A stretch of DNA of 64,000 nucleotides from Arthrobacter sp. NicSoilC5 (GTDB taxonomy: Bacteria > Actinomycetota > Actinomycetes > Actinomycetales > Micrococcaceae): NCBI RefSeq assembly GCF_019977395.1, contig NZ_AP024660.1, positions 372,001 through 436,000 of the forward strand, given 5' to 3'. Of this stretch, positions 4,158 through 16,734 are shown piece after piece; the first letter of the stretch is position 1, and every line of letters starts with the position of its first letter. The notes under the pieces are model-generated. The model ran no database searches and was not told where the DNA came from. It was given only the letters and a program-made list of their open reading frames with translations. The position numbers were made by a program, and so were the translations under genes.

Positions 4158-4493
4158 GTGGCCACAATCAAGCAACGAAAAGCCGCTGAACTGCTGGTTG
4201 AAAATGGTGGAAACGCCAGTAAGGCTATGCGTGACGCTGGGTATTCCCCAGCCACAGCCAAAACTCCGCAGAAGCTTACTGAGAGTACAGGGTTCCAAGA
4301 GCTATGCGACGAGTTGGGTCTCACGGACGAGTTCCTGCTCAAGGCACTCGTGGAGGATATCGCTTCCAAGCCAGGCGACCGGAAGCCGGAGCTAGAGCTG
4401 GGCTTCAAGGTCAAAGGCCGGATGACTGAGAACAACACTAGTAAAGCACGGGCAACGCCGGGGGCGAACCTAACCAGCAGATACACTCCCTAA
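4158..4493 (+). CDS. Terminase small-subunit-like HTH protein (orphan)
   Basis: A 111-residue protein from a GTG with a clear AAGGAG site. Residues 4-50 read KQRKAAELLVENGGNASKAM, RDAGYSPATAK and LTESTGFQEL. This is the helix-turn-helix pattern of phage terminase small subunits and related DNA-binding proteins (K-RKAAEL-...-NATKAA--AGYS--TA). The rest is short, with DEFLLKALVEDIASKPGDRKPELELGFKVKGR typical of the segment after that domain. No large terminase, portal or capsid gene is nearby, so it is either a prophage relic or a protein reused by the adjoining system. It ends 23 bases before the ATPase/DUF3883 gene and may be co-transcribed with it. Confidence 0.6.
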   Translation: MATIKQRKAAELLVENGGNASKAMRDAGYSPATAKTPQKLTESTGFQELCDELGLTDEFLLKALVEDIASKPGDRKPELELGFKVKGRMTENNTSKARATPGANLTSRYTP

Positions 4494-4516
4494 AGATCCA
4501 TAGACGAGGGGGCAAA

Positions 4517-7500
4517 GTGGACGTCACAACGAGACTTCGCGAAAGCGAGCTGGCATCAATCCGCGTCCAAATGGACTACGATTTGCGGGAGAACGTGCTC
4601 AAGAGTCTGGATGAACGTGGCGGCGCACAGGACTTAGTGCGACAACAGTACACCGGACGATATCCCTTCGAGTTATTGCAGAATGCCAACGACGCAGCAC
4701 GTGACACCGGAACCCAGGGTCGCGCACACTTCTTGTTGACCGAAACAGCATTGATCGTGGCCGATAATGGTTCCGGGTTTGGTGATCCACAGGTCGAAGC
4801 CATTTGCTCACTGGGGAGATCCTCCAAGGACCCATCCGACTCAGTCGGTCACAAGGGGCTTGGGTTCAAATCTGTAGGGGAAATCACCGACCATCCGCAG
4901 ATTGTCTCGCAGTTGTCTTCATTCCAATTCAACGGTACGCGCGTCCGTGCTGAAGTCGGCCGGCTTCTAGGATTATTACCGCCGCGTCAGAAGATGCCGA
5001 TTTACGCCTTTCCGTTTCCCGTAGACAATACGGACCTTGGCCCTGATGCTGCCGCGGTTGAGAAACTTCGTGCGAACGGCTTTACGACGGTCATCCGGCT
5101 TCCCTTCCGGGACGGCGTCGAACGGAGGACAGTTGAAGCTGCTCTGATTGAAAACCTCGCCTCCCGTCTCCTTCTCTTTCTGCCACATGTCGATCATCTG
5201 CAGCTGGAAGGGACTTACCTTGACTTCTCTTCCGAGATCTTTCGCGAAACGGACGGCGGCGTGGAGCACGTCATTCTGGAAACCAATGGCAGTACCGAAG
5301 AGTGGTTTATTTATCGAGGCTCTATCGCGCCGGACCCAGCGGTGTTGGAGTCCCTTGGAGAGTCATGGAAGGAGATGGATGAAGTTCGCTTCGCCGTCGC
5401 CGTGCCGGTAGACGAACAGGGCCAGCCGCTCGTCGACGCTACATTCCCACTCCACGTCTATTTCCCGACTGACGAAGAGCCTGGCCTCCACGTGGCGGTC
5501 CACGCGGAGTGGATGCTGAGTATGGACCGACGTCAGATCGCCACGACTCCCGAAGCGGCAGATTTCAACCGCATGCTGTTCCGGGCAGTGTCACATCATC
5601 TCAAGTCGACAGTCGCTCCAGACTTGGTCCGGCGAACTCGGGCGAGTTCCGTCGCGATCGAGGCGCTCGTCCCAGCCAGCGTCCCGCCAGCCGGCGGGGG
5701 CGGGACCGCCATGCGCAGTTATTGGAGGGAAGCACTGCTCGCTTCTCAATTTCTGCCGACTGCAGATGGTTCATTACGTCGTCCCGAGGAGATTTTCCTC
5801 CTGCCGCGAAGTCTGCCGGATGCCGCGACTGCTCATGACTTGGCAAATCTGGATTGCGCTCACACGCTGCGCCCCGACGTCGAGCAGCTCACTCCGATTA
5901 AAGACTTTCTCGCTGGCGTCGCCGACAACCTTGAGATGGGGATTGGCGAGTTTATCGCTTTATTGACTGCGCCGACACGGGAGACTGCGGAGTACTACTA
6001 CCAGTTCCTGGCGGACTGGCGCGAATCGGTCGGCATGAGAATCGTCAACGAACTCAAGAAGGCTCCAATCGTTCTCGGCGCGGCTGGTCAGCTTCTGACG
6101 CCGGGCAGTGACACCATCTTCTTTCCACGGGAGCGCGGTGACACCACCATTCCGGAAGATCTGCCGGTGCCCATTGCATATGTGCCCGACGGCGACGGCG
6201 TGAGGAACCTTCTTCGTGAGTTGGGGATCAAGTCATTTGAATGGCGCGAACTCATTCGCGAATATCTGATCAAGATTTTGAGCGACCCTGAACCTGATGG
6301 CGACGCGCGTGCTGGCGCTATGGCCGGCCTCCGGGCGTACCACCAGATGCGACTACAGGGAAGCGAGGAATTCGAGCCGCTGCTCGGAGGAGTACTTCTT
6401 CCTGCCAGGACGGCAGACGGCTCCGTCCAACAGATGCGTCCTGCAGCCGAGATCTACTTCGGTGCGCCGTGGATCGGTTCCGACCATTTGGAAGTTATCT
6501 ATGGGCCGTTTGGTCACGCCGAGTTCCTCGACATCGCACCTCCCCAGGACTCCGAAAGCCGCCAGCATGACTTTGACTTTTACCGCATGCTCGGCGTTGT
6601 TGAACATCCCCGCCTTTCCAAAGCTGAAACGAACACGCCTGTCAACAACACCATCAGACATCCTCACCGCGGCGGGCTTTTCCGAGAGTGGTTCGAATGC
6701 TCTGAAGTCAGGGATGCGACGCAGTGCCCGCAAGGGCACACTCAATCTCAGCAACTGCGCGAGTCATTCCGCCTTGACCGTCATGAAGAACTCATTGCGT
6801 CCGAGGATCCTATCCGCCTCATGGCGCTCTGGAAGCAGTTCGCACGACGATGGGGATCGGTTTACGAGGACGGCATGCATGCCATCTTCTACTGCATCCA
6901 CGGCAGCCATGCCGGCGAGCGTGGCCGTCGTGCCCCTTCGTTGTTCGCCTACACCCTCCGGGCGCAACCGTGGGTTCCGGTTGACCGGGGCAACACGCCG
7001 GATCTGGTCCGGCCGTCGGAGGCATGGATCGATGCGGCTCAAACGCCGCGCCGAATCCAACAACGCATCCCGCGAATCAGCGAGGCGATGTATCAAACCC
7101 ACGGCGGTGCCGGCCTGGCTGCAGCCCTGCGCCTGACAGACGCCGGCCGACCGGGCGTGGCCGATCTTCTAACGCTGCTGGAGGGCATCGCAGAGGAAGC
7201 GAATGCCGCAGGGAGGACGAACCGTGAAATCGACCAGGCGGCGCGCTGGGTGCAGCGCACCCTGAACGATGTACTTCGCGATGAGCCCGAGCCACACCCT
7301 GCACCAGAGACAGTTCTGCTTCTGGCCAGCCAAGACGGCGTGACCCAGTTCGTGGCACAGCCGGCCTACGCTGACGATCCTCTTCTTCGAGACACTTTCG
7401 AGAAGCAACTCCCGATGCTTTCCGCCGAGGTCGGATTGACCAAACTGACCCGTTATCTCGCGCTGAACAAGCTCGACGACTCAGCAGTTACCTCCGCACT

Positions 7501-8764
7501 TCCCTTCGGTGAGGACCACGGTGCAACCGACGGTCAGGTGAGGCGGCGAATCAACGACATCAAGCCGTACCTGTTGGCGCTGGTTCGCGCCGAGAACTCT
7601 AGCGCCGAAAACCGCGTCCGGCCGGCACTTCGGAGGCTCGAACTCGTCGTCTGCGAACGGCTGGTCCTCACGTACGAATTTGGAGGCACGAAAGCCTCGC
7701 GTGAGGATGCCGTCTGTTATATCGCCAGCCGCTCCGAGAGACGGGGCAGGAAGACGATCAATGTAGGCACGGCATACCTGGAACTCGATGCCGCAACCGG
7801 CCTACCCCATTGGTTTCCGCTCGGACGACAGCTGGCCCAGCACCTAAACGTGCCGACTTTGGCGGACGCATTCACCATGTTGCTTACAGCCTCGCCCGAA
7901 GACCGAAACCGCATGATGGCCGACCGCCAGGTCCTGCCACACGACATTTCGGAGGCCAGGAGGCTGCTCAAACTGCCGCAAGAGGAAGACGAGGAACTTT
8001 TTAACGTCCTCGATTCGCTTCTACCCGATCTCAGCGAGGCGGATGCCGGTATTTCGTCTGGCCTGGCGGCACTAAAAACAGATCAAGCGGGGGTGGTCTC
8101 CGAGCATATTCCTGAGGCGGGGAACCATACGAATGACCCGAGCCAGCACGATTCCGCAGAGGATGAGCAGGAGGTAGCAAGCAAACCCGCGTCAAAGTCT
8201 TCCCCTCCAGCAGTCGACTTCTCAGCTGTTACCGTCGTCGACGGCGTACCGGGAGACCCGGTTCAGACCGGCAGGGCCACATCCAGTGGTTACAGGGGAA
8301 GCGGGGGAAACGGCCACAGCACCGCGCCAAGCATTCACACGGAGGAAGAAGATCGCCGTATCGGCAAGCGCGGCGAAGAGGTGGTGTTCCACGCAGAACG
8401 TCAGCGGCTGAGCAAGCTGGGCAAGAACCCCGACTCGGTTCGGTGGGTGTCCAAGGTCAATGAGCTCTCGCCATATGACCTGGTCAGCCTGGACGAAGAC
8501 GGACAAGTGATCTACCTTGAGGTCAAGTCGACGAAGGGGATCGATCCTACGGAGACGTTCTACATCTCACACCGTGAGCTGATTGAAGCCACAGTGCACC
8601 GGAGTCGGTACTACATTTTCCGGGTTACTCTCGTCGACACTGCAGTTCCAGTCATCACCAGATGGCCCGACCCACTTGGATTGATCAGAAGTGGTAAGGG
8701 TCTGCTGCTGCTCGCGAACGCACAGATGGCCCTTTCTCTGGCCGGTGAGGCTGAGGGCGAATGA
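4517..8764 (+). CDS. Sacsin-like HSP90-type ATPase with C-terminal DUF3883 (PD-(D/E)XK-like) domain
   Basis: A 1415-residue protein from a GTG at 4517 behind a GAGGGGG ribosome site. Residues about 45-130 carry the GHKL ATPase signatures: ELLQNANDAARD (Mg-binding Asn helix), ALIVADNGSGF (G1 box) and GHKGLGFKSV (G2 box). This is the arrangement of sacsin and plant NO VEIN-type proteins. The large middle has no known motif; about residues 1190-1290 are a low-complexity Ser/Glu/Asp linker. Residues about 1295-1400 match DUF3883: GKRGEEVVFHAERQRL, then YDLVSLDEDGQVIYLEVKST, where D...EVK is a PD-(D/E)XK-type active site, then FYISHRELIEA. Such fusions recur in bacterial defence islands. Nucleotide-controlled nuclease action is inferred, not shown. 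Confidence 0.8.
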   Translation: MDVTTRLRESELASIRVQMDYDLRENVLKSLDERGGAQDLVRQQYTGRYPFELLQNANDAARDTGTQGRAHFLLTETALIVADNGSGFGDPQVEAICSLGRSSKDPSDSVGHKGLGFKSVGEITDHPQIVSQLSSFQFNGTRVRAEVGRLLGLLPPRQKMPIYAFPFPVDNTDLGPDAAAVEKLRANGFTTVIRLPFRDGVERRTVEAALIENLASRLLLFLPHVDHLQLEGTYLDFSSEIFRETDGGVEHVILETNGSTEEWFIYRGSIAPDPAVLESLGESWKEMDEVRFAVAVPVDEQGQPLVDATFPLHVYFPTDEEPGLHVAVHAEWMLSMDRRQIATTPEAADFNRMLFRAVSHHLKSTVAPDLVRRTRASSVAIEALVPASVPPAGGGGTAMRSYWREALLASQFLPTADGSLRRPEEIFLLPRSLPDAATAHDLANLDCAHTLRPDVEQLTPIKDFLAGVADNLEMGIGEFIALLTAPTRETAEYYYQFLADWRESVGMRIVNELKKAPIVLGAAGQLLTPGSDTIFFPRERGDTTIPEDLPVPIAYVPDGDGVRNLLRELGIKSFEWRELIREYLIKILSDPEPDGDARAGAMAGLRAYHQMRLQGSEEFEPLLGGVLLPARTADGSVQQMRPAAEIYFGAPWIGSDHLEVIYGPFGHAEFLDIAPPQDSESRQHDFDFYRMLGVVEHPRLSKAETNTPVNNTIRHPHRGGLFREWFECSEVRDATQCPQGHTQSQQLRESFRLDRHEELIASEDPIRLMALWKQFARRWGSVYEDGMHAIFYCIHGSHAGERGRRAPSLFAYTLRAQPWVPVDRGNTPDLVRPSEAWIDAAQTPRRIQQRIPRISEAMYQTHGGAGLAAALRLTDAGRPGVADLLTLLEGIAEEANAAGRTNREIDQAARWVQRTLNDVLRDEPEPHPAPETVLLLASQDGVTQFVAQPAYADDPLLRDTFEKQLPMLSAEVGLTKLTRYLALNKLDDSAVTSALPFGEDHGATDGQVRRRINDIKPYLLALVRAENSSAENRVRPALRRLELVVCERLVLTYEFGGTKASREDAVCYIASRSERRGRKTINVGTAYLELDAATGLPHWFPLGRQLAQHLNVPTLADAFTMLLTASPEDRNRMMADRQVLPHDISEARRLLKLPQEEDEELFNVLDSLLPDLSEADAGISSGLAALKTDQAGVVSEHIPEAGNHTNDPSQHDSAEDEQEVASKPASKSSPPAVDFSAVTVVDGVPGDPVQTGRATSSGYRGSGGNGHSTAPSIHTEEEDRRIGKRGEEVVFHAERQRLSKLGKNPDSVRWVSKVNELSPYDLVSLDEDGQVIYLEVKSTKGIDPTETFYISHRELIEATVHRSRYYIFRVTLVDTAVPVITRWPDPLGLIRSGKGLLLLANAQMALSLAGEAEGE

Positions 8765-8798
8765 GGAAAGAGAAAACTGACTGTCGAGGTATGTCCGT

Positions 8799-10148
8799 AT
8801 GGATTACCGCGAAATTGCCAGCCGATTTGCCTGGGCAACTGCGCCCGGCACACGCATGTCGGCCACGCGAGATACTCTGCATACTGTGAGCGTGAATCCC
8901 GAAGAGGAACCTGAGACAGGCGACGAGGTCGAACTGATCAGCGACGGTGAAAACTTGCTGGTTGTTGGTGACAAGCAGCATGCCGTTGAAAGCTTCTTGC
9001 GGACCAAAGGTTTGCTCGAAAGAGCCCGTGAAATCAGTCTCCAAGAACTTGGACCCGCCCTTCGTTCATCGGCAGGGCTCCTCCAGACAGTCTCCGAGGC
9101 TGTCACCAACTCAGGTCTCTGGGTGAAGATAACGCCGGAATCGGCGGACGCTATCAAGGAGTTCGGGCTCACGGACAGCGGAGTGCCTGGCGTTGCTTAC
9201 GCAATGGCTGGCACTCGCGGCTCCATTAAGGAGTGGCTGAGGATCGACACGACCGCCGGAGCAAGGGCAGCGAACCCCGCCGTGCTGTCAGGCATCGCCG
9301 GGGCGCTGTCACAAGCCGCGCGCCAGCAGGAGGTCGCACAGTTGCGCCAGTTCCTGGGAAAACTGGACCAAAAACTCGACTACGTCCTCCGCGGCCAGCG
9401 GGATGACATTCTGGGCGACTTGGCCGGCATCGAAGGCGAGATCAGGGCTGCCCTCCGTACCGCCAAACTCGAAGGACAGCTCGACTCCCTGACCTGGTCA
9501 AAACTCTCCGGCGCATCACTGGAAATAAGACAGGTGCAGTCAAAGGCAATCCTGAAGCTGGCAGGCATCGCGGACGACTTCGACCTTCACAAGCGCATCG
9601 GTGACCTCAACCAACACCTCCCGCATGCCAAAAGCGGCGTGCAACTATGGCTCGCGACGATCGCCCGCTGCACCGCGGCTCTCGACGAGCTCGCGATTCT
9701 GGAAATCGACCACTACGCCACGATTGCCCCCGGCCAGGTGAATGCCAGACGAATGTCGCTCGAGGCCTCGCGCCGGGATGACCAAGCGGAACTGCATGAG
9801 GGCATCTCGGTTCTGCTGCGCCGCATGGACTCGGCAGCGGATCTTGCCAATCAGAACAAGATCTTTCACGTAAAGGCTGTGCCTGCGGTCATAGGGTCAA
9901 TCGAGCAGACCCGAGGGCTCATCAAGAGGTTCTACGTCGCCTTGAACATCGAAGTCGATTGGGACTCGCTGGACCCAATAGAGTGGAGCGCCGCGATCCG
10001 AGAATGGCGACAGTGGAGAAACGGACTGGTGGAAGGCGGCTCGCTGGCATGGGAGAAGGGAAAACCGGTTCTCGGAACCATCGCACTCACAGTCCTGACG
10101 GCGGCGGTTAAGGACAAGATCAAGCTTCCCGGGAAGCCCTGGAACTAG
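8799..10148 (+). CDS. Uncharacterised helical protein, likely partner of the ATPase/DUF3883 gene
   Basis: A 449-residue protein starting 34 bases after the ATPase/DUF3883 gene on the same strand, so probably co-transcribed. Residues 45-75 form a small beta/alpha segment (VELISDGENLLVVGDKQHAVESF). A Gly/Ala-rich middle (GVAYAMAGTRGSIKEWL) follows, then a long helical part from about 165 to 290 (QAARQQEVAQLRQFLGKLDQ, GDLAGIEGEIRAALRTAKLE) likely to form a coiled coil. A weak hydrophobic helix lies near the C-terminus (PVLGTIALTVLTAAVKDK). I recognise no enzyme motif. Start is uncertain: ATG at 8799 or 8856, or GTG at 8893, which sits just before the first conserved-looking segment. Confidence 0.6.
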   Translation: MDYREIASRFAWATAPGTRMSATRDTLHTVSVNPEEEPETGDEVELISDGENLLVVGDKQHAVESFLRTKGLLERAREISLQELGPALRSSAGLLQTVSEAVTNSGLWVKITPESADAIKEFGLTDSGVPGVAYAMAGTRGSIKEWLRIDTTAGARAANPAVLSGIAGALSQAARQQEVAQLRQFLGKLDQKLDYVLRGQRDDILGDLAGIEGEIRAALRTAKLEGQLDSLTWSKLSGASLEIRQVQSKAILKLAGIADDFDLHKRIGDLNQHLPHAKSGVQLWLATIARCTAALDELAILEIDHYATIAPGQVNARRMSLEASRRDDQAELHEGISVLLRRMDSAADLANQNKIFHVKAVPAVIGSIEQTRGLIKRFYVALNIEVDWDSLDPIEWSAAIREWRQWRNGLVEGGSLAWEKGKPVLGTIALTVLTAAVKDKIKLPGKPWN

Positions 10149-10618
10149 GACAAATTTCCCAACAGCCTGGGGGTGTTCTAGCTTGGTACTCCATGTCGCC
10201 GGAATCCTGGCCCGTCGGCGTGCGGGCGGTGGAGTCGGTTTTCGGCCGCCTTTGGCCCCATCAAGGTCGTGGCCCGCGACGTTCAGCGCCTCGTAGGCTC
10301 TCTGGCAGAATAGACCGTCCATCTTGCCGCTGTAGGTCATACAACGGAGCGGCTCGTACGGTTCTTCGCCGGGCTCGTCGGGTCCTGGGTGCGCCACTCT
10401 TGTGCGCACGGGGCTGTTGCCGTGGCGCCGCTGTCTCTGAGACCCATAGAACGCGCTGATCGTGTTTCTGCCCGCGCAGGTCGTCAGGCTGGATGCTACG
10501 AAAGGCTGTTGGTGCTAAGTCCTCCTGCAGGGTTCCCTTGTTACCACTGTGAACCGCCAGGGGCGCAGTCGCAGAAGACCGCGGTGAAATGGATAGAGGA
10601 AGAATGGGGGGAAAGTGG
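10149..10618. other. Gene-poor stretch with a decayed coding remnant
   Basis: No convincing intact gene. On the minus strand around 10230-10390 one frame reads EEPYEPLRCMTYSGKMDGLF and QRAYEALNVAGHD, which looks like protein. But the frame runs back into the coding region of the previous gene and has no clear start. A similar EEPYDPIK phrase occurs on the minus strand near 60220. I take both as remnants of a related lost gene. Confidence 0.35.
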
Positions 10619-10803
10619 GTGTTGACAATGTCAACACTTCCGACGCCGGATTGGATGGTAAAGCCTGCGGATTGCCCCTTAATGCGCATGTTTTCGCGAG
10701 TTCCCCGTGTTTTCAAGGCCCGGAATGCGGTTCGAGTCCCACCTCGGGCACAGTGTTTCCGCAGGTCAGAGGCTTTTTTGTTTCTAGCTGTTGACAAGGC
10801 TTG
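10619..10803 (+). repeat. 185-bp palindrome plus tRNA-3'-end-like module, copy 1
   Basis: The module starts with a perfect palindrome GTGTTGACA-A-TGTCAACAC (10619-10637). It contains a tRNA T-arm/acceptor-like 3' end at 10730-10752 (TTCGAGT loop, CCCAC half-stem, CTCGGGC acceptor, then ACA) and ends with TGTTGACAAGGCTTG at 10789-10803. Copy 2 at 59897-60081 has all three elements at identical offsets (0, 111 and 170). There is no 5' half of a tRNA, so this is not a functional tRNA gene. It resembles an attachment-site scar where an element integrated at a tRNA 3' end. Confidence 0.6.
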
Positions 10804-10906
10804 ACTTTTTGAGATCGCCGCTCATCCCCTCTGGGGGTCCTCCCGGCTTTTGGGGTCGTCGGGCTGGGGGAGGAATGAACGCCGACGTGGCGGCATCCAT
10901 CGAAAG

Positions 10907-11680
10907 CTATCCGCACTTGGGCATAGTCTCGATGGCATCCGCGACGGTTTTGGGCATGTTGTGCGACTTTGTGACGGGCGAATCCGGATGGATGAACTGG
11001 CCGTCGCTTAGCACGAGCCAGGGTAGCGGTATCTCACGAACTTCCGAGCAAACCCGGACCAGCGCGCCCTCGCCGGGGGGCAGCACAAGGGGTTCATTCT
11101 TGTGCATTTGAGTATCGCTTTTGCTTAGCTCCGGCAAATGAATCCAATGCGCGTCCATGCGGTGGTCCTCTTGGTCCGGTTCTGTGAAATCGAGAATGGT
11201 GATTGGCATGCGACCAGTGTTGGTTAGGATGAAGGTGAAGTCGGAACTGATCATTGACACGACTCCATCGTCTTGAACCTTCAGTCTCGTTTCATTGTCC
11301 GACGGGAAAGCGATAGAAAGGTTAGCGCCTTTGATAGCCTCGTTACCCTGTTGAATCTGGATCCCGACAAAAAATAGTCCTGCTACCGTGGCAACGCTAG
11401 CCAGGAAGCCGACTGCGGCTGAGACGCCGCCCCAAATCCTCGCTTTGCCAGGTTCTGCAGGGGGCGGCAGGTATGGCGCCAGTTCTTTCACCAGCGTTTT
11501 GAGTTGCGAGGTAGTGAGGACCTGCTCGGGTTGTTGGACCGGATCGATTTTCTCCTCTTCCTCGTTTTCGGGCCGGGATTGCGCCCTTTGTGTACTGAGC
11601 GGGGCGGAGGTCTTGGTCACCACGGGAACATACCAGATGTTTGAAGCCCAGGTTTGCCTTGGGAAGATGTGACCTTTCAC
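10907..11680 (-). CDS. Hypothetical single-helix membrane protein
   Basis: A 257-residue protein. The first 90 residues are hydrophilic and acidic (RPENEEEEKIDPVQQPEQVL). One membrane helix follows at about 86-108 (GVSAAVGFLASVATVAGLFFVGI). The soluble C-terminal half has a beta-rich pattern (FTFILTNTGRMPITILDFTEPD, GALVRVCSEVREIPLPWLVL). The latter resembles small Ig-like domains of proteins that describe deviations from a resting state, but I cannot assign a family. The start is uncertain because the first 20 residues have little character. It stands alone between the tRNA-like module and the HNH gene. Confidence 0.5.
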   Translation of the reverse strand: MKGHIFPRQTWASNIWYVPVVTKTSAPLSTQRAQSRPENEEEEKIDPVQQPEQVLTTSQLKTLVKELAPYLPPPAEPGKARIWGGVSAAVGFLASVATVAGLFFVGIQIQQGNEAIKGANLSIAFPSDNETRLKVQDDGVVSMISSDFTFILTNTGRMPITILDFTEPDQEDHRMDAHWIHLPELSKSDTQMHKNEPLVLPPGEGALVRVCSEVREIPLPWLVLSDGQFIHPDSPVTKSHNMPKTVADAIETMPKCG

Positions 11681-12013
11681 CCCTCGTCTCGGGTCCCTGG
11701 CGTGTTGCTGTGGTGGCGGGCATGGCGTCGTACATTGACGCGGCAGCCTTGATCAGTTTCCGGACCGCCATTGTGATTTATCAGGCCGCTTTCGGGGCTC
11801 GCGTCTCATCAGGCCGGCGCCTGCCGGTCTTCGTGTTTAGGCGCGCCGGCTGTCACCGGATAGGTGCGTGATTCTCGCATTTGATGAGCGTTGAGGACTG
11901 GCGATAATGAACATTTTCGCCACCGAGATGGGCTGATAACGCTGCAGCGGGTGCCATCCTCGACCAATACACTCGATCCAATACAGCTGTACCCGCACCG
12001 CTCCAGGTGGACC

Positions 12014-12964
12014 TTACGAAGCTGCGGCCAGCCCCTCGGAAGCGTCTGCTTCCGTGTCGTGCCATTCCAAGCCATACGATCCGTTCTTTTCCAGGTAAGT
12101 GACGCCCTTACCCAGGAGCCGGGCGGAGTCTTGGAACATGCCCAGGCCCGCGTTGCAGGTGGTGCACAGTACGCCGCGCACCTTGCCGGTGTCGTGGTTG
12201 TGGTCGATGTGCGTGGCCTGCTGCTCTTCGCACAGATCGCAGAGCCGCGGGGTGCCCAGCAGTTGGTATGCCTCCCGCGGCGTCAGTCCGTAGCTCTTGC
12301 CGCGCTCCACAATCCGGTAGCACTTAGGACTGCAGAATTGGGTATCCAGGCGCTTTTCTTCAGGGATGTCCCCAAGGCAGGCGATGCATACCAGGATCCT
12401 GTCGGGGGCCCCAAGACGATCTCTCCGGCGGCAGACGTCCGAGCAGAAGAGTCGTTGCTTCGGTGCCGGGCCACCGCAGTAGTGGCAGATCCGGGTGTAG
12501 TCACGCATGATTCGGTCGATCGTGCCGTTGGTCCGGGTACGTCCGTAGTGCATTTCGCAAAGCCTGATCCCAGACTTGGTCCCCGACGACCTGCTCTTTT
12601 TCTCGCAGCCCTCGACGTCACAGGTGGGACAGTCCTGGCGCTTCTCCTCTTTCAGGGCCTTCCTGCGGGCGGCCTTGCACTCAGGGCTGCAGATCTGGGG
12701 CACCCGGCCGCGCCCCATGACCTGATAGTCAAATTCGATACCGCACTGAAGGCAGGTCACCGTATCTTCCCGCGGTTCCTGCCGCACCCGGTTCCTGTTC
12801 CGCGGCCTGACGCCGGACTTTTCTGCGTTGAACTTTGACCTGCACGGGGCGCTACAGTACTTTCGCACCGTCGCCCCTCCGACCCGTTCCCACTGGAACT
12901 CCTTGCCGCAGTATGCGCAGGCGGTGGTTTCGATGGAGCGGGGTTTAGGCTGCTTGGAGGACAT
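12014..12964 (-). CDS. Endonuclease VII-like HNH nuclease with several zinc-finger Cys pairs
   Basis: A 316-residue protein; the ATG at 12964 is chosen because the upstream 39 residues look non-coding. At least five CxxC-type pairs precede the nuclease: CAYCGKEF, YCSAPCRSKF, CLQCGIEF, ICSPECKAAR and CHYCGG with CSDVCRR. The C-terminus carries the recombination endonuclease VII pattern: LCDLCEEQQATHIDHNHDTG, then VRGVLCTTCNAGLGMFQDS. The two CxxC pairs bind zinc and HIDHNHDTG supplies the His/Asn catalytic residues. Such proteins are common on phages and mobile elements of actinobacteria. It probably nicks or cuts DNA; the target is unknown. All key residues appear present. Confidence 0.8.
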   Translation of the reverse strand: MSSKQPKPRSIETTACAYCGKEFQWERVGGATVRKYCSAPCRSKFNAEKSGVRPRNRNRVRQEPREDTVTCLQCGIEFDYQVMGRGRVPQICSPECKAARRKALKEEKRQDCPTCDVEGCEKKSRSSGTKSGIRLCEMHYGRTRTNGTIDRIMRDYTRICHYCGGPAPKQRLFCSDVCRRRDRLGAPDRILVCIACLGDIPEEKRLDTQFCSPKCYRIVERGKSYGLTPREAYQLLGTPRLCDLCEEQQATHIDHNHDTGKVRGVLCTTCNAGLGMFQDSARLLGKGVTYLEKNGSYGLEWHDTEADASEGLAAAS

Positions 12965-13264
12965 GATCGCAGGGTAAATGCAGGGTCTGACAACCAGCGT
13001 TATTGCGTTGGTGTGTTGTTCAGTTCCTTTCAGGTCCGGGCGGAAGCCAGTCCAGCGCCGGCCGTCATCGCCGACCACCACGATGGGGAGGGCTGCATCA
13101 GTCCGTCTTCCTTGAACTTGGACGCCGTGTCAGGATGCTCGTCAAGCTGTACCGCTTCGTATGCGATACGCTCGCGCAGGAGTCGGCAGCAGGCGGACAA
13201 ATAACCGGCCGGTCAAAGCGTGTTGATGAACCGTTCTCGGGATGCTGGCCGTCATGGTTGACCT

Positions 13265-13706
13265 GTGAGGACAGGACAATACTTCCCGGACGAGGCGGGC
13301 GCTGAGTTAGCGCCGCTGCGCGCAGCCAAGTACCCGCAGTCTTCTCTCCCGGCTCTGACGAGCGCGGAACGGCACTCATCCGGCGACTACACCGCAGAGC
13401 TGACACAGTTACTGTGGCCCGCGCGCCTCTACACCCGCGAGGAAGTGCTCGAGCGGTCCTCACCCGTGCCAAAGGTGTCCGGCGTGTACGCGTGGTACTT
13501 CGATGAAGTGCCACCTGGTGTAGACGTCCGCGACTGTCACGTCATCCCTGATGGGGTGATGCTCTACGTCGGCATCGCGCCGAAGGAGCCGTCTCGAAAT
13601 GGAGCACGGCCGAGCACGCAGACGCTTTGGAACCGGATCCGATACCACTACCGCGGCAACGCCTATGGTTCCACACTACGGCTGACACTGGGCTGCCATC
13701 TGGCAG
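13265..13706 (+). pseudogene. GIY-YIG nuclease-like protein, C-terminus cut off by IS21
   Basis: The frame runs from a GTG at 13265 and enters the IS at 13707, where it stops at 13723 after a few foreign residues. The native part reads VSGVYAWYFDEVPPGVD (the GIY strand), VMLYVGIAPKEPS (the YVG strand) and LWNRIRYHYRGNAYGS, with the conserved helix Arg, then LRLTLGCHL. This is an actinobacterial GIY-YIG family of about 200-240 residues, so roughly the last third, including the usual downstream Glu, is missing. The right flank of the IS does not continue the frame, so the rest of the gene is lost rather than merely interrupted. Confidence 0.7.
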
Positions 13707-13762
13707 TGAATATGTCAACTTGATTCAAGACCACTAAGACGGCTTGATTCAGGGCCACCCTG
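13707..13762 (+). repeat. Left terminal repeat region of the IS21 element
   Basis: It contains TTGATTCAAGACCAC and then CTTGATTCAGGGCCACC about 25 bases apart, mirrored at 16735-16790. Multiple such blocks are the transposase-binding sites of IS21 elements. Confidence 0.7.
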
Positions 13763-13813
13763 GCTTCTGCCGATGGTCTTGTCACCTTCGCCCTACCGGG
13801 AGAGACTCACGGC

Positions 13814-14017
13814 ATGACGTTGACGTTTCAGCAGGGACTGCTGTTCTGGCCGGGAATCATCCTTGTGGCCGTAAGTTTCTGGTTACTGATTACGGCGATA
13901 CGGCGCGGACCGGATGCCTATTCTTCGTCGCGTGAACGAAAAAGGACATTCATGAGAATTGCGGTCCTTTGTGCAACCGGCGCAGTGTTACTTCTGGCAC
14001 TGGTGTTGGTCGACTGA
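13814..14017 (+). CDS. Small two-helix membrane protein inside the IS21 element
   Basis: A 67-residue protein with two hydrophobic segments (LLFWPGIILVAVSFWLLITA and MRIAVLCATGAVLLLALVLV) joined by a charged loop RRGPDAYSSSRERKRTF. A GGGAGAG ribosome site precedes the ATG by about nine bases. It lies between the left IS end and the istB stop, on the opposite strand to istAB, so it would be a passenger gene. IS21 elements normally carry only istA and istB. It could instead be host DNA captured by the element. Function unknown. Confidence 0.5.
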   Translation: MTLTFQQGLLFWPGIILVAVSFWLLITAIRRGPDAYSSSRERKRTFMRIAVLCATGAVLLLALVLVD

Positions 14018-14160
14018 GATCCACCGTCGCAATGGACGCCCTTTTCGACCTCTTATGTCGCCTCTGTTAGCCCCTCTCAACCCCAAGGTTAGGACCCAAC
14101 AGAACGGCCTCAACGAGGGTTCCCATCGGGACGCTGGGCGGGCCTCGTTGTCTTGGAGGG

Positions 14161-14976
14161 CTAAGCGTTTTGTTGGGCGATGGTGTGGGCGAGGCGGTAG
14201 GAGTCGGTGCCGGTCTCGATGATGGTGCCGTTGAAGGTGAGGCGGTCCACGATCGCGGCGCACAGGCGCGGGTCGGTGAAGGTCTTGGTCCAGCCTGAGA
14301 ATGATTCGTTGCTTGCGATGGCGATGGAGTTCTTCTCTTCCCTTTCGGTGAGGACCTGGAAGAGGAGTTCGGCGCCTCGGCGGTCCAGCTCCATGTAGCC
14401 GAGCTCGTCAATGCAGAGCAGGTCGACCCGGCCGTAACGGGCGATGGTCTTGGCCAGGACTTTCTCGTCCGCGGCTTCGATGAGTTCGTTCACGAGCCGG
14501 GTCGCCAGGGTGTATTTGACCCGGTAGCCCTTTTCCGCGGCCGCGGTGCCGAGCCCGATGAGCAGGTGGGATTTCCCGGTCCCTGAGTCTCCGATGAGGC
14601 ATAGGGGTGCGCCTTTGCGGATCCAGTCACCGGTCGCCAGGGTGTGGATGGTTGCGGGGTTGATGTTCTGGTTCGCGTCGAAATCGAAGTCCCCGAGCCA
14701 TTTGTCCCGAGGGAAGTTCGCGGCTTTGACGCGGCGGATCGAGGAGCGCCGGTCCCGGTCGTCGCATTCGGCCAGCAGCAGCTCGGCCAGGAACCCCTGG
14801 TAGGACAGTTGCTCTTTCCCGGCAACGCTCAGTGCTTCGTCCAGCACCGCACGGACTGTGGGCAGGCGCAGCCGGCGGCAGGCCTGGTCCACGGCTGCGA
14901 CCGCGGCTTGCTCGGTCAGCCCGCGCCGTCGGCGCAGGGTCGGAGTGATCGTGGCGGCCGGTGCGGTGGGACTCAT
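14161..14976 (-). CDS. istB: IS21 helper ATPase IstB
   Basis: A 271-residue protein with an AAA+ fold. Walker A is LIGDSGTGKSHLLIGLG and Walker B is VDLLCIDELGYMELDRRGAE; FSGWTKTFTDPRLCAAIVDRL is the sensor/arginine-finger region typical of IstB. In IS21 transposition IstB binds DNA with ATP and directs IstA to the target. Its start overlaps the istA stop by four bases (14973-14976), the usual istAB arrangement, which couples translation. Length is normal for the family (about 250-270) and no disruption is seen, so it should be functional. Confidence 0.95.
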   Translation of the reverse strand: MSPTAPAATITPTLRRRRGLTEQAAVAAVDQACRRLRLPTVRAVLDEALSVAGKEQLSYQGFLAELLLAECDDRDRRSSIRRVKAANFPRDKWLGDFDFDANQNINPATIHTLATGDWIRKGAPLCLIGDSGTGKSHLLIGLGTAAAEKGYRVKYTLATRLVNELIEAADEKVLAKTIARYGRVDLLCIDELGYMELDRRGAELLFQVLTEREEKNSIAIASNESFSGWTKTFTDPRLCAAIVDRLTFNGTIIETGTDSYRLAHTIAQQNA

Positions 14977-16649
14977 GAGATGTTCTCCTTCGACGGTGTT
15001 CCTGCAGAGTGCTCGCTGCGCTTGGCCAGCAGCTCGTCATAGGCGCCGATCGACGGAATCGGGCGCGTGTCGGCCGGGAGCCCCGCGATGACCGCCGCAG
15101 GGTCCATGAGCCGGCGCTGGGTCAGGCTGACAACCCGTTGCACATTCACTTCAGCAAGAGCACGCGGATGACGGTCTGAATCGGACCCACCCCCGGTCGG
15201 CGCCGTTGCGTGTCTGCGGGCCTCGACCGCGACGACATCTGCACTGACAGCTCCCACGCCCAGCGCTGCGGTGATCCCTGCCTGAATGTCTCCGGCATCC
15301 ATGGAGCGATGCAGCAACAGGACATCGACGAGTTCACGAGTCCCCTCGGCGTCGCCATTGACGCGGCGGGATGCTGCCCAGAACGCCTCATGGGCGCTGG
15401 TGAACGATCCGGACTGCCGGGCCCGGGCCAGCGCCGTGGAACCGGGCAGCGCACCGGGTTTGGTCCTCAGGACCTCAAGGTAGTGGTCCAGCTGGACCGA
15501 CTGCCCGGACCGGGCGGCTACGCGTTGGTGCCGGGCGACCACGGCCCGGCCGTCGAACACCACGACCTCAGACGCCCTCAATGACACCCGGACTTTCCGG
15601 CCGATGAACCGCGCCGGAACGGAGTACTTCACCATCCGAACCGTGATCAATGAAGACCTGTCCACCGTCGGGTTGAGCACCAGGCCCGGATCAAATTCTT
15701 CCACTGGCAGCGGTGCCAGGAATGGCTGTTCGGTGACGAAGTCCTGGCCGATCGTGTGGATTCTGTCCATGATCCATCGGCGCTCATCCTGGACTTCCCA
15801 GGCCCGGATGCGGTCATTGAGTTCATCCAGGGACTCCACGACCGGCATCGGGGAGAGCCGGTTGCGACGGAACCAGCCCACCTCTCCCTCAACGCCGCCC
15901 TTTTCGTGCGCCCCGCCGATGCCGGGCTGGCAGTAAAAGGCGTCAAAGCCGTAATGCGAGCGGAATAGCACCCACCGGTCGTTCTCCTGCCGCTGCCGGC
16001 CTTGCCCGAACACCACGGCGGTGACCGCGCTGGTGAGGTTGTCGTAGCGGATGTGTCTGACCGGCACACCGCCGATTTCGTTGAACGCCTCGATGTGGCC
16101 TTCCAGGAAAGCTTCCTGGGCTTGGGTGGGGTAGATCCGGTGGATGGCCTTGCCGGAATGCGAGAGCCGGAAGACGAACATGTGGCACTTCGTCTTCACA
16201 CCATTGAGCACCACCCAGAGCTCACCGAAATCCACCTCGGCCTCGGCACCGGGCCCGTGTTCCTGCGGCACGAACACCTCAACCCGGCGGCCGGCTTCCA
16301 CATCGATTTGCGCCCGGCGGACCCGCACGTGGTCACGCACCGTCGAATACGAGAGCTCCTCCGCTCCGTGCTCCTCGATCAGCCGGGCCAGGATCCTCCG
16401 GGCGGTATGACGCTGCTTCCTCGGCGCCGAGGTGTCCGCGATCAGCATGGCGTCGATGGCCGGTTTGAACGGATCCAGCCTGGGCGATGACCGCACCGGT
16501 TTCTTCCGCGCTGGCGGGACAGGATCCGACAATGCCTGTCGGACGGTGTCCCTGCCGACCTGATGCCGCTTTGCCAACCCACGGATCGACATGCCCTCCA
16601 CGCGGGCGTCTCGGCGGATCTTGGCAAACAGCTCCATGCGCACCCTCAT
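14973..16649 (-). CDS. istA: IS21 transposase IstA
   Basis: A DDE transposase of about 558 residues when started at MRVRMELFAKIRRD (16649); a longer frame reaches 16691 into the terminal repeats and is less likely. The N-terminal HTH reads GMSIRGLAKRHQVGRDTVRQ. The rve core has AEVDFGELWVV (first Asp), RYDNLTSAV (second Asp) and HEKGGVEGEVGWFRRN (catalytic Glu). The C-terminal part reads VPARFIGRKVRVSLRASEVV, the DNA-binding beta domain seen in IS21. The frame is intact and all three catalytic residues are present. Confidence 0.95.
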   Translation of the reverse strand: MRVRMELFAKIRRDARVEGMSIRGLAKRHQVGRDTVRQALSDPVPPARKKPVRSSPRLDPFKPAIDAMLIADTSAPRKQRHTARRILARLIEEHGAEELSYSTVRDHVRVRRAQIDVEAGRRVEVFVPQEHGPGAEAEVDFGELWVVLNGVKTKCHMFVFRLSHSGKAIHRIYPTQAQEAFLEGHIEAFNEIGGVPVRHIRYDNLTSAVTAVVFGQGRQRQENDRWVLFRSHYGFDAFYCQPGIGGAHEKGGVEGEVGWFRRNRLSPMPVVESLDELNDRIRAWEVQDERRWIMDRIHTIGQDFVTEQPFLAPLPVEEFDPGLVLNPTVDRSSLITVRMVKYSVPARFIGRKVRVSLRASEVVVFDGRAVVARHQRVAARSGQSVQLDHYLEVLRTKPGALPGSTALARARQSGSFTSAHEAFWAASRRVNGDAEGTRELVDVLLLHRSMDAGDIQAGITAALGVGAVSADVVAVEARRHATAPTGGGSDSDRHPRALAEVNVQRVVSLTQRRLMDPAAVIAGLPADTRPIPSIGAYDELLAKRSEHSAGTPSKENIS

Positions 16650-16734
16650 CCGGGACCTCCAAAGCTCGCTTTCAACAGATGAAAGCAACACTGAGGTGGT
16701 CCTGACTCAAACCGTCATAAGCAACCGGCGAGTC

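Follow-up and report, generated by a model that had tools for sequence, protein, structure and literature searches.

Tiamat is a single-gene defence system. Passages of one paper describe it as enriched in Actinobacteria, almost always chromosomal and with its mechanism listed as unknown (PMC10482375), another is cited here for the part that presents it as a hotspot system of Pseudomonas islands (PMC12629846), and a section of a 2026 review counts it among largely uncharacterised systems (PMC12926258). Here we analysed a window of 64,000 nucleotides from Arthrobacter sp. NicSoilC5 (bases 372001-436000 of one 4.69-Mb contig, which is the whole genome), in which an open reading frame (ORF) of 1415 codons is predicted to encode a member of the Tiamat protein family, TmtA. 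A preliminary description of the window had grouped this gene, tmtA, with one ORF on each side as a possible module of an undescribed anti-phage type. In our view it is likely that the predicted protein is a stand-alone anti-phage TmtA carried as cargo by a genomic island anchored at a tRNA-Leu gene. What was observed is that the protein belongs to the family, that its catalytic motifs are invariant among the relatives aligned, that several relatives adjoin defence genes, and that tmtA is independent of the neighbouring gene.

Other described systems resemble parts of the locus. The C-terminal domain, DUF3883, is termed a novel restriction endonuclease (REase) domain in a passage of PMC3710099. 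The nucleases PD-T4-1 and PDC-S36 likewise have a C-terminal DUF3883/PD-(D/E)xK-like domain, but they are much smaller (models of 216-383 positions) and are without the GHKL ATPase. For the island, the ssrA islands of Dehalococcoides are the relevant precedent: passages of PMC3146451 describe tandem accretion and cis-mobilizable elements, 15 of them without integration modules. Literature queries on DUF3883, Hsp90-like ATPase/sacsin and TmtA returned, for those wordings, nothing on mechanism, and for its own wording a query combining tRNA-Leu, genomic island and integrase with Arthrobacter retrieved no paper.

The TmtA protein and its relatives

The 1415-residue protein was matched by the PADLOC model PDLC03965 (TmtA) with 1474.7 bits, over residues 24-1410 of the protein and positions 10-1360 of the 1370 in the profile, and this was the single match to the model in its own genome. 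By this match the protein is a full-length member of the TmtA (Tiamat) family, a catalogued defence family. Because the match runs from end to end, the protein is not of an undescribed type as the preliminary description had proposed. Seven further TmtA models matched with 61 to 300 bits (best 299.5) and one marginally with 14.5 bits. The layout of ATPase and DUF3883/PD-(D/E)xK domain with intact motifs is the same as in Tiamat, but the far weaker scores of the other models mark this copy as a diverged branch, and it differs further in its setting, an unrelated gene being next to it within a tRNA-Leu island array. The gene and its domains are:

4517..8764, + strand: tmtA, 1415-residue TmtA (Tiamat) family protein (PADLOC PDLC03965)
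4649..4951, + strand: GHKL/sacsin-like ATPase domain, with E52..N56..D59 (N-box), D83-x-G85-x-G87 and G111-x-K113-G114-x-G116
8372..8641, + strand: NOV_C/DUF3883 PD-(D/E)xK-like nuclease domain, with E1287, D1321 and E1335-x-K1337

The earlier assignment of a GHKL ATPase joined to DUF3883 held, with all three family models above their cut-offs. NCBIfam NF047352 gave 69.5 bits (cut-off 50) at residues 48-129 and Pfam SACS 32.9 bits (cut-off 32.8), placing the ATPase region near residues 48-133, and PF13020 (DUF3883/NOV_C) gave 51 bits (cut-off 22.1) at residues 1286-1375. The PADLOC profiles of PDC-S36 and PD-T4-1 matched within residues 1274-1378 with 61.6 and 33 bits. When 42 sequences were aligned (the TmtA of the window and 41 of the 119 others listed, 371 having been found in all), the ATPase residues E52, N56, D59, D83, G85, G87, G111, K113, G114 and G116 and the C-terminal residues E1287, D1321, E1335 and K1337 were invariant. 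We take these to be the N-box, the G-boxes and the D...ExK motif from established knowledge of both folds. The view of the giant protein as an ATPase-nuclease also stood, now as part of a defence family in which some relatives adjoin pPIWI-RE, Hma-like and type III restriction genes.

This copy of tmtA is presumed to work. In the mechanism that we envisage, the N-terminal GHKL (Hsp90/sacsin-type) ATPase would close as a dimer on ATP, and the long, unassigned middle region would sense a product of infection. Closure would then switch on the C-terminal DUF3883 PD-(D/E)xK nuclease, a gating by ATP that is suggested by the motifs, and the nuclease would cut the phage DNA, or all DNA, DNA being the presumed target. 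With its catalytic motifs intact, this clean and diverged TmtA from an actinobacterium is suited to testing how Tiamat works.

The gene neighbours of TmtA relatives were read in eight selected loci. In Mycolicibacterium the relative has an Hma-like methylase/ATPase pair upstream of it, and in Nocardioides genes for a DNA methylase and a type III restriction enzyme immediately precede a more distant relative (33%). The relative in Knoellia adjoins TniQ, and that of a Microthrixaceae metagenome-assembled genome adjoins an integrase. In Amycolatopsis pithecellobii (locus L089, 795-14257) a tmtA relative (76%) was seen directly after PprDinG and PprPIWI, with PprPDDEXK further upstream, these being genes of pPIWI-RE. 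Among plasmid records, 48 had TmtA relatives, which were partial or distant, none covering 80% of the query.

The matches to sacsin- and Hsp90-type models would also suit a chaperone or housekeeping ATPase akin to sacsin or to plant NO VEIN, and according to a metagenome survey the sequences called as Tiamat in plant samples came from the plants themselves (PMC12409356). We consider such a role improbable for the protein of the window, since its nuclease motif is invariant, defence genes adjoin several of its relatives, and its distribution is patchy, with close relatives (E <= 1e-80) in only three of 396 genomes from the order, one of which is its own.

Independence of tmtA from the adjoining genes

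The two ORFs that had been grouped with tmtA lie on the same strand. Together with the DNA block shared between tmtA loci they are placed as follows:

4158..4493, + strand: 111-residue ORF with a terminase-small-subunit-like N-terminal stretch, residues 3-36
8799..10148, + strand: 449-residue neighbour, of an unnamed actinobacterial family (possible true start 8856 or 8886)
4475..8744, + strand: DNA block common to the tmtA loci of two other Arthrobacter genomes (G007 and G013), 78-79% by blastn

The preliminary description had suggested searching for co-occurrence of the two large genes elsewhere, and we examined this from both sides. A match to the neighbour family was found in 33 other genomes, and leaving out the weakest (G105) gave 32 loci. 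None of them had a TmtA-profile match in the flanks, which were searched with profiles and six-frame translation over about 9 kb per side in most. Conversely, a neighbour-family gene was absent from the flanks of 48 of the 49 other distinct TmtA-relative loci, many of which match the ATPase part only (L022, L182 and L183 duplicate L102, L090 and L097 and were counted once); the exception, L098, holds a distant relative. The preliminary description had named a partner unlinked to DUF3883/ATPase genes in other genomes as grounds against its reading, and this is what both counts show outside L098. The 449-residue protein was rejected as the partner in a module, L098 being the exception. The same picture was obtained for whole genomes: among 199 relative genomes, 34 had a neighbour-family match and 37 a TmtA match (many to the ATPase part only), and both occurred together in nine against 6.3 expected, which is near chance. 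In a rough comparison of the lengths of longest contigs, of which only 43 for the neighbour and 91 for TmtA reach 8 kb, no length was common to 84 of the 85 neighbour clusters and the 120 listed of 371 TmtA clusters, the window's own excepted.

The shared DNA gave a further line of evidence. With the first 14.5 kb of the window as the blastn query, and the two relatives at 80% identity and Amycolatopsis as subjects, the block shared with the Arthrobacter pair consisted of tmtA plus at most 42 bases in front, and the block shared with the Amycolatopsis locus spanned 4509-8741 (76%). The block takes in just the last 19 bases of the 111-residue ORF and nothing of the 449-residue gene. Thus the three genes are not conserved as a module, the shared block being limited to tmtA. 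In neither G007 nor G013 was the neighbour adjacent to tmtA (the contig of G013 ends 1.5 kb past tmtA), and the ORF before tmtA in G007 had no match in Pfam.

Several observations weigh against a stand-alone Tiamat protein. The name TmtA comes from a PADLOC profile, PDLC03965, which may or may not be the one that holds the experimentally tested Tiamat; several diverged models share this name, the next best scoring 299.5 bits, and PDLC03965 also matched in two of 14 control genomes. Defence genes are sparse around the window's own tmtA, where one of 53 other ORFs, a DrmD, matched PADLOC at E <= 1e-10 (the 53 were drawn from 138 listed ORFs of at least 200 residues in the own genome), and the idea of a defence island around this tmtA was dropped. 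In L098, from Mycobacterium nebraskense, the distant neighbour relative (7972-9240) lies upstream of a TmtA-like gene (9743-14224) with one ORF between them. The TmtA-like protein is 33% identical to that of the window, and its cluster matches Dsr1, NERD-helicase and HEC-05 profiles. Weak TmtA-like matches were also found 11-24 kb from a neighbour-family gene in G010, G052 and G117, so that the two families may share islands without being partners.

A two-gene variant of Tiamat, in which the 449-residue protein would act as sensor, inhibitor or effector of the ATPase-nuclease, would be in line with the common strand and close spacing in the window, with the arrangement in M. nebraskense, and with the restriction-modification genes found beside the 449-residue family elsewhere. 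We nevertheless hold it to be improbable in view of the loci counts, the conserved block ending before the 449-residue gene, tmtA occurring without the neighbour in both 80% relatives, and neither the genome counts nor the contig comparison pointing to a link. A false lead, a new two-gene defence system, is thereby removed.

The close spacing itself was found to depend on the start codon of the neighbour. All three ORFs lie where the preliminary description had placed them, on the + strand and with 23 bases between the first two, but the 34 bases given between tmtA and the neighbour are doubtful. In the first 29 codons of the 449-residue ORF the GC profile resembles that of non-coding DNA (0.55/0.66/0.55), whereas the remaining codons give 0.66/0.43/0.71. 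Several close relatives begin at the position matching codon 30 (8886; P0003, P0007 and others) or codon 20 (8856; P0002). Other relatives are recorded as longer (P0004 with 448 residues, P0006 with 459). The true gap may be about 90-120 bases, and since the start codon is uncertain, the operon-like spacing may partly be an artefact.

As described earlier, the 449-residue protein, called helical in the preliminary description, has no recognised motif. It had no family match in Pfam, PADLOC or PHROGs, its one row in NCBIfam scored 12 bits against a cut-off of 396.1, and two family profiles found nothing better than E 0.99 among the solved structures of the PDB. An alpha-xenorhabdolysin-type toxin, the UniRef name carried by the relative P0065, was considered and set aside, as no Pfam family up to E 0.1 and no PDB match was obtained. 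Among 8000 candidates scored there were 85 relatives, the named ones being actinobacterial, and the wider family extends to about 20% identity. Four plasmid records held relatives, and a scan of genome contigs with the neighbour alone gave no match.

The surroundings of the neighbour family were compared with PADLOC at E <= 1e-10. From 28 of the 32 loci, 110 adjoining proteins hit 201 models (L053, L059, L063 and L066 were left out, being without a separate neighbour-family ORF in simple gene calls), and the 25 of these models that were listed include restriction-modification enzymes, DpdE and DrmD. In the control, 26 shifted stretches, taken from the same genomes or from sister genomes, supplied 104 proteins that hit 51 models, eight of 112 proteins (loci L177 and L179) having been left out. 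The difference between 201 and 51 is only suggestive, as models rather than proteins were counted and many models overlap. Housekeeping genes, namely those of methionine synthase and UPRTase, also adjoin neighbour-family loci. The neighbour appears to be a separate accessory gene of the same island, most likely encoding another conflict or stress protein borne by it. In locus L051 (8333-11729, G023) a relative 48% identical to the neighbour precedes a gene for a DUF6119 protein on the same strand, and in L067 (9006-10420, G052) the gene is split into two ORFs and is apparently a decaying copy.

On the other side of tmtA, the description of the 111-residue ORF as terminase-like stood in that a weak similarity is present (PHROG 51, E 4.5e-5); as a full domain it failed, the Pfam match to the terminase small subunit reaching 15.6 bits (cut-off 26.1). 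An operon of this ORF with tmtA was ruled out because the conserved block begins within its last codons. This similarity, together with an ERF-type protein and rve-type transposase upstream, might suggest that what is left here is a decayed phage packaging region of three ORFs rather than a defence locus. Such an origin is very improbable, since the similarity spans 34 residues, no large terminase, portal or capsid was found among the Pfam-scanned ORFs (part of the ORFs of the 23-kb segment), tmtA has an uninterrupted reading frame of 1415 codons with a match to a defence family, the neighbour had no relatives in phage records, and no relative of either protein was confirmed in viral contigs.

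The tRNA-Leu(CAA) repeat array

Parts of the window at 10601-10800 recur in the genome. Eight places matched, all on one strand (239788, 359345, 382601, 431897, 437657, 437925, 483763 and 488566 of the contig), and one of them belongs to a genuine tRNA-Leu(CAA), at 239728-239810, of which it forms the 3' end. Exact copies of the 18-base core were found at 359410, 382730 (window 10730), 432008, 437776, 438039 and 483807, and a seventh copy with one mismatch at 488680, so that the array reaches 488697. The tRNA and the seven copies are all on the + strand and are spread over 249 kb. At other places in the genome there are three further core matches with one or two mismatches, and one of these is on the opposite strand. 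The array has a single PF00589 match, a tyrosine integrase at 240422-240964, immediately past the tRNA. Since repeats flank them on both sides, tmtA and its neighbour lie within a 23.3-kb segment, between 359410 and 382730. In the window the right-hand repeat comprises:

10730..10751, + strand: copy of the tRNA-Leu(CAA) 3' end, core of an attachment-like site, at the right end of the tmtA-holding segment and 0.6 kb after the neighbour
10619..10637, + strand: dyad GTGTTGACA-A-TGTCAACAC, upstream arm of the attachment-like site

The dyad (GTGTGGACA-n-TGTCCACAC) was present upstream of all 19 non-tRNA copies examined (seven from the own genome, G000, six from G011, three from G001, two from G005 and one from G026). 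It pairs in 9 of 9 positions in nine copies, in 8 in eight and in 7 in two, and its distance to the core is 109-112 bases in 18 of the 19 copies and 63 in one. In some copies there are matching changes on both sides, for example GTGTTGACA/TGTCAACAC against GTGTGCACA/TGTGCACAC. The pairing score alone is weak evidence, because in the same best-of-many scan a different inverted repeat upstream of each of the seven true tRNA copies also scored 7 or 8 of 9; the shared sequence and position are the stronger evidence for the dyad.

Ten relatives were picked and scanned with a 22-base core, allowing at most one mismatch and counting the tRNA itself. Three or more copies were found in nine of them and one copy in G017. 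All copies were on one contig and one strand in G001, G006, G011, G012, G017, G026 and G029 (one copy in G012 is 593 kb away and may be another tRNA), and they were spread over several contigs in G002, G005 and G007. An integrase adjoins the tRNA in G026 and G017 and was not found beside it in the pieces examined of G011, G001, G006 and G029. In G005 a truncated, 65%-identical relative of the 449-residue gene adjoins two repeats, so that an array of this kind carries the neighbour family in a second strain as well. The right flank of the single copy in G017 was not found in the stretches 230001-576000 of the own genome (without 310001-312000). A gene on the right-hand side, chosen as a marker for the end of the array, was discarded, because it is itself variable, being present in 8 of 59 genomes, and in G006 has repeats on either side. 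The comparison with G017 likewise did not locate the right end.

The tmtA locus is thus probably cargo of a tRNA-anchored island array. We propose more tentatively, as one joint reading that we would not yet back at even chances, that tmtA and its neighbour are cargo of an integron-like array common in the genus. In some genomes the integrase beside tRNA-Leu(CAA) would collect islands that have no integrase of this kind, in almost all cases with the same orientation. The islands would be bounded by an attachment site of about 150 bp, made of the tRNA 3' end and a selected dyad about 111 bp upstream, and tmtA and other defence genes, together with orphan families like that of the 449-residue protein, would be cassettes exchangeable between strains. 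This reading is made less likely by G002, where two copies on one contig, 5.9 kb apart, lie on opposite strands, against a strict rule of one orientation. The array suggests a route by which such genes could be shuffled among strains of a soil genus, and as the repeat is conserved, such islands are easy to map.

An array of this type is interesting but precedented. According to passages of PMC3146451, the Dehalococcoides ssrA islands are likewise tandem, and at their borders stand direct repeats of a structural RNA's 3' end with conserved extra sequence alongside; there, however, the RNA is tmRNA, the enzyme a serine recombinase, and the repeats lie within 100 kb, whereas the array described here has tRNA-Leu(CAA), a tyrosine integrase, an extent of 249 kb and the dyad upstream of the repeat.

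Other features near the locus

Rfam at gathering thresholds gave nothing within the window. Mobile-DNA features near the locus, of the sort noted earlier, were recovered as follows:

12014..13081, - strand: recombination endonuclease VII-like protein (PF02945, 63.8 bits)
13265-13723: GIY-YIG protein
14161..16691, - strand: IS21-type IstB and adjoining transposase

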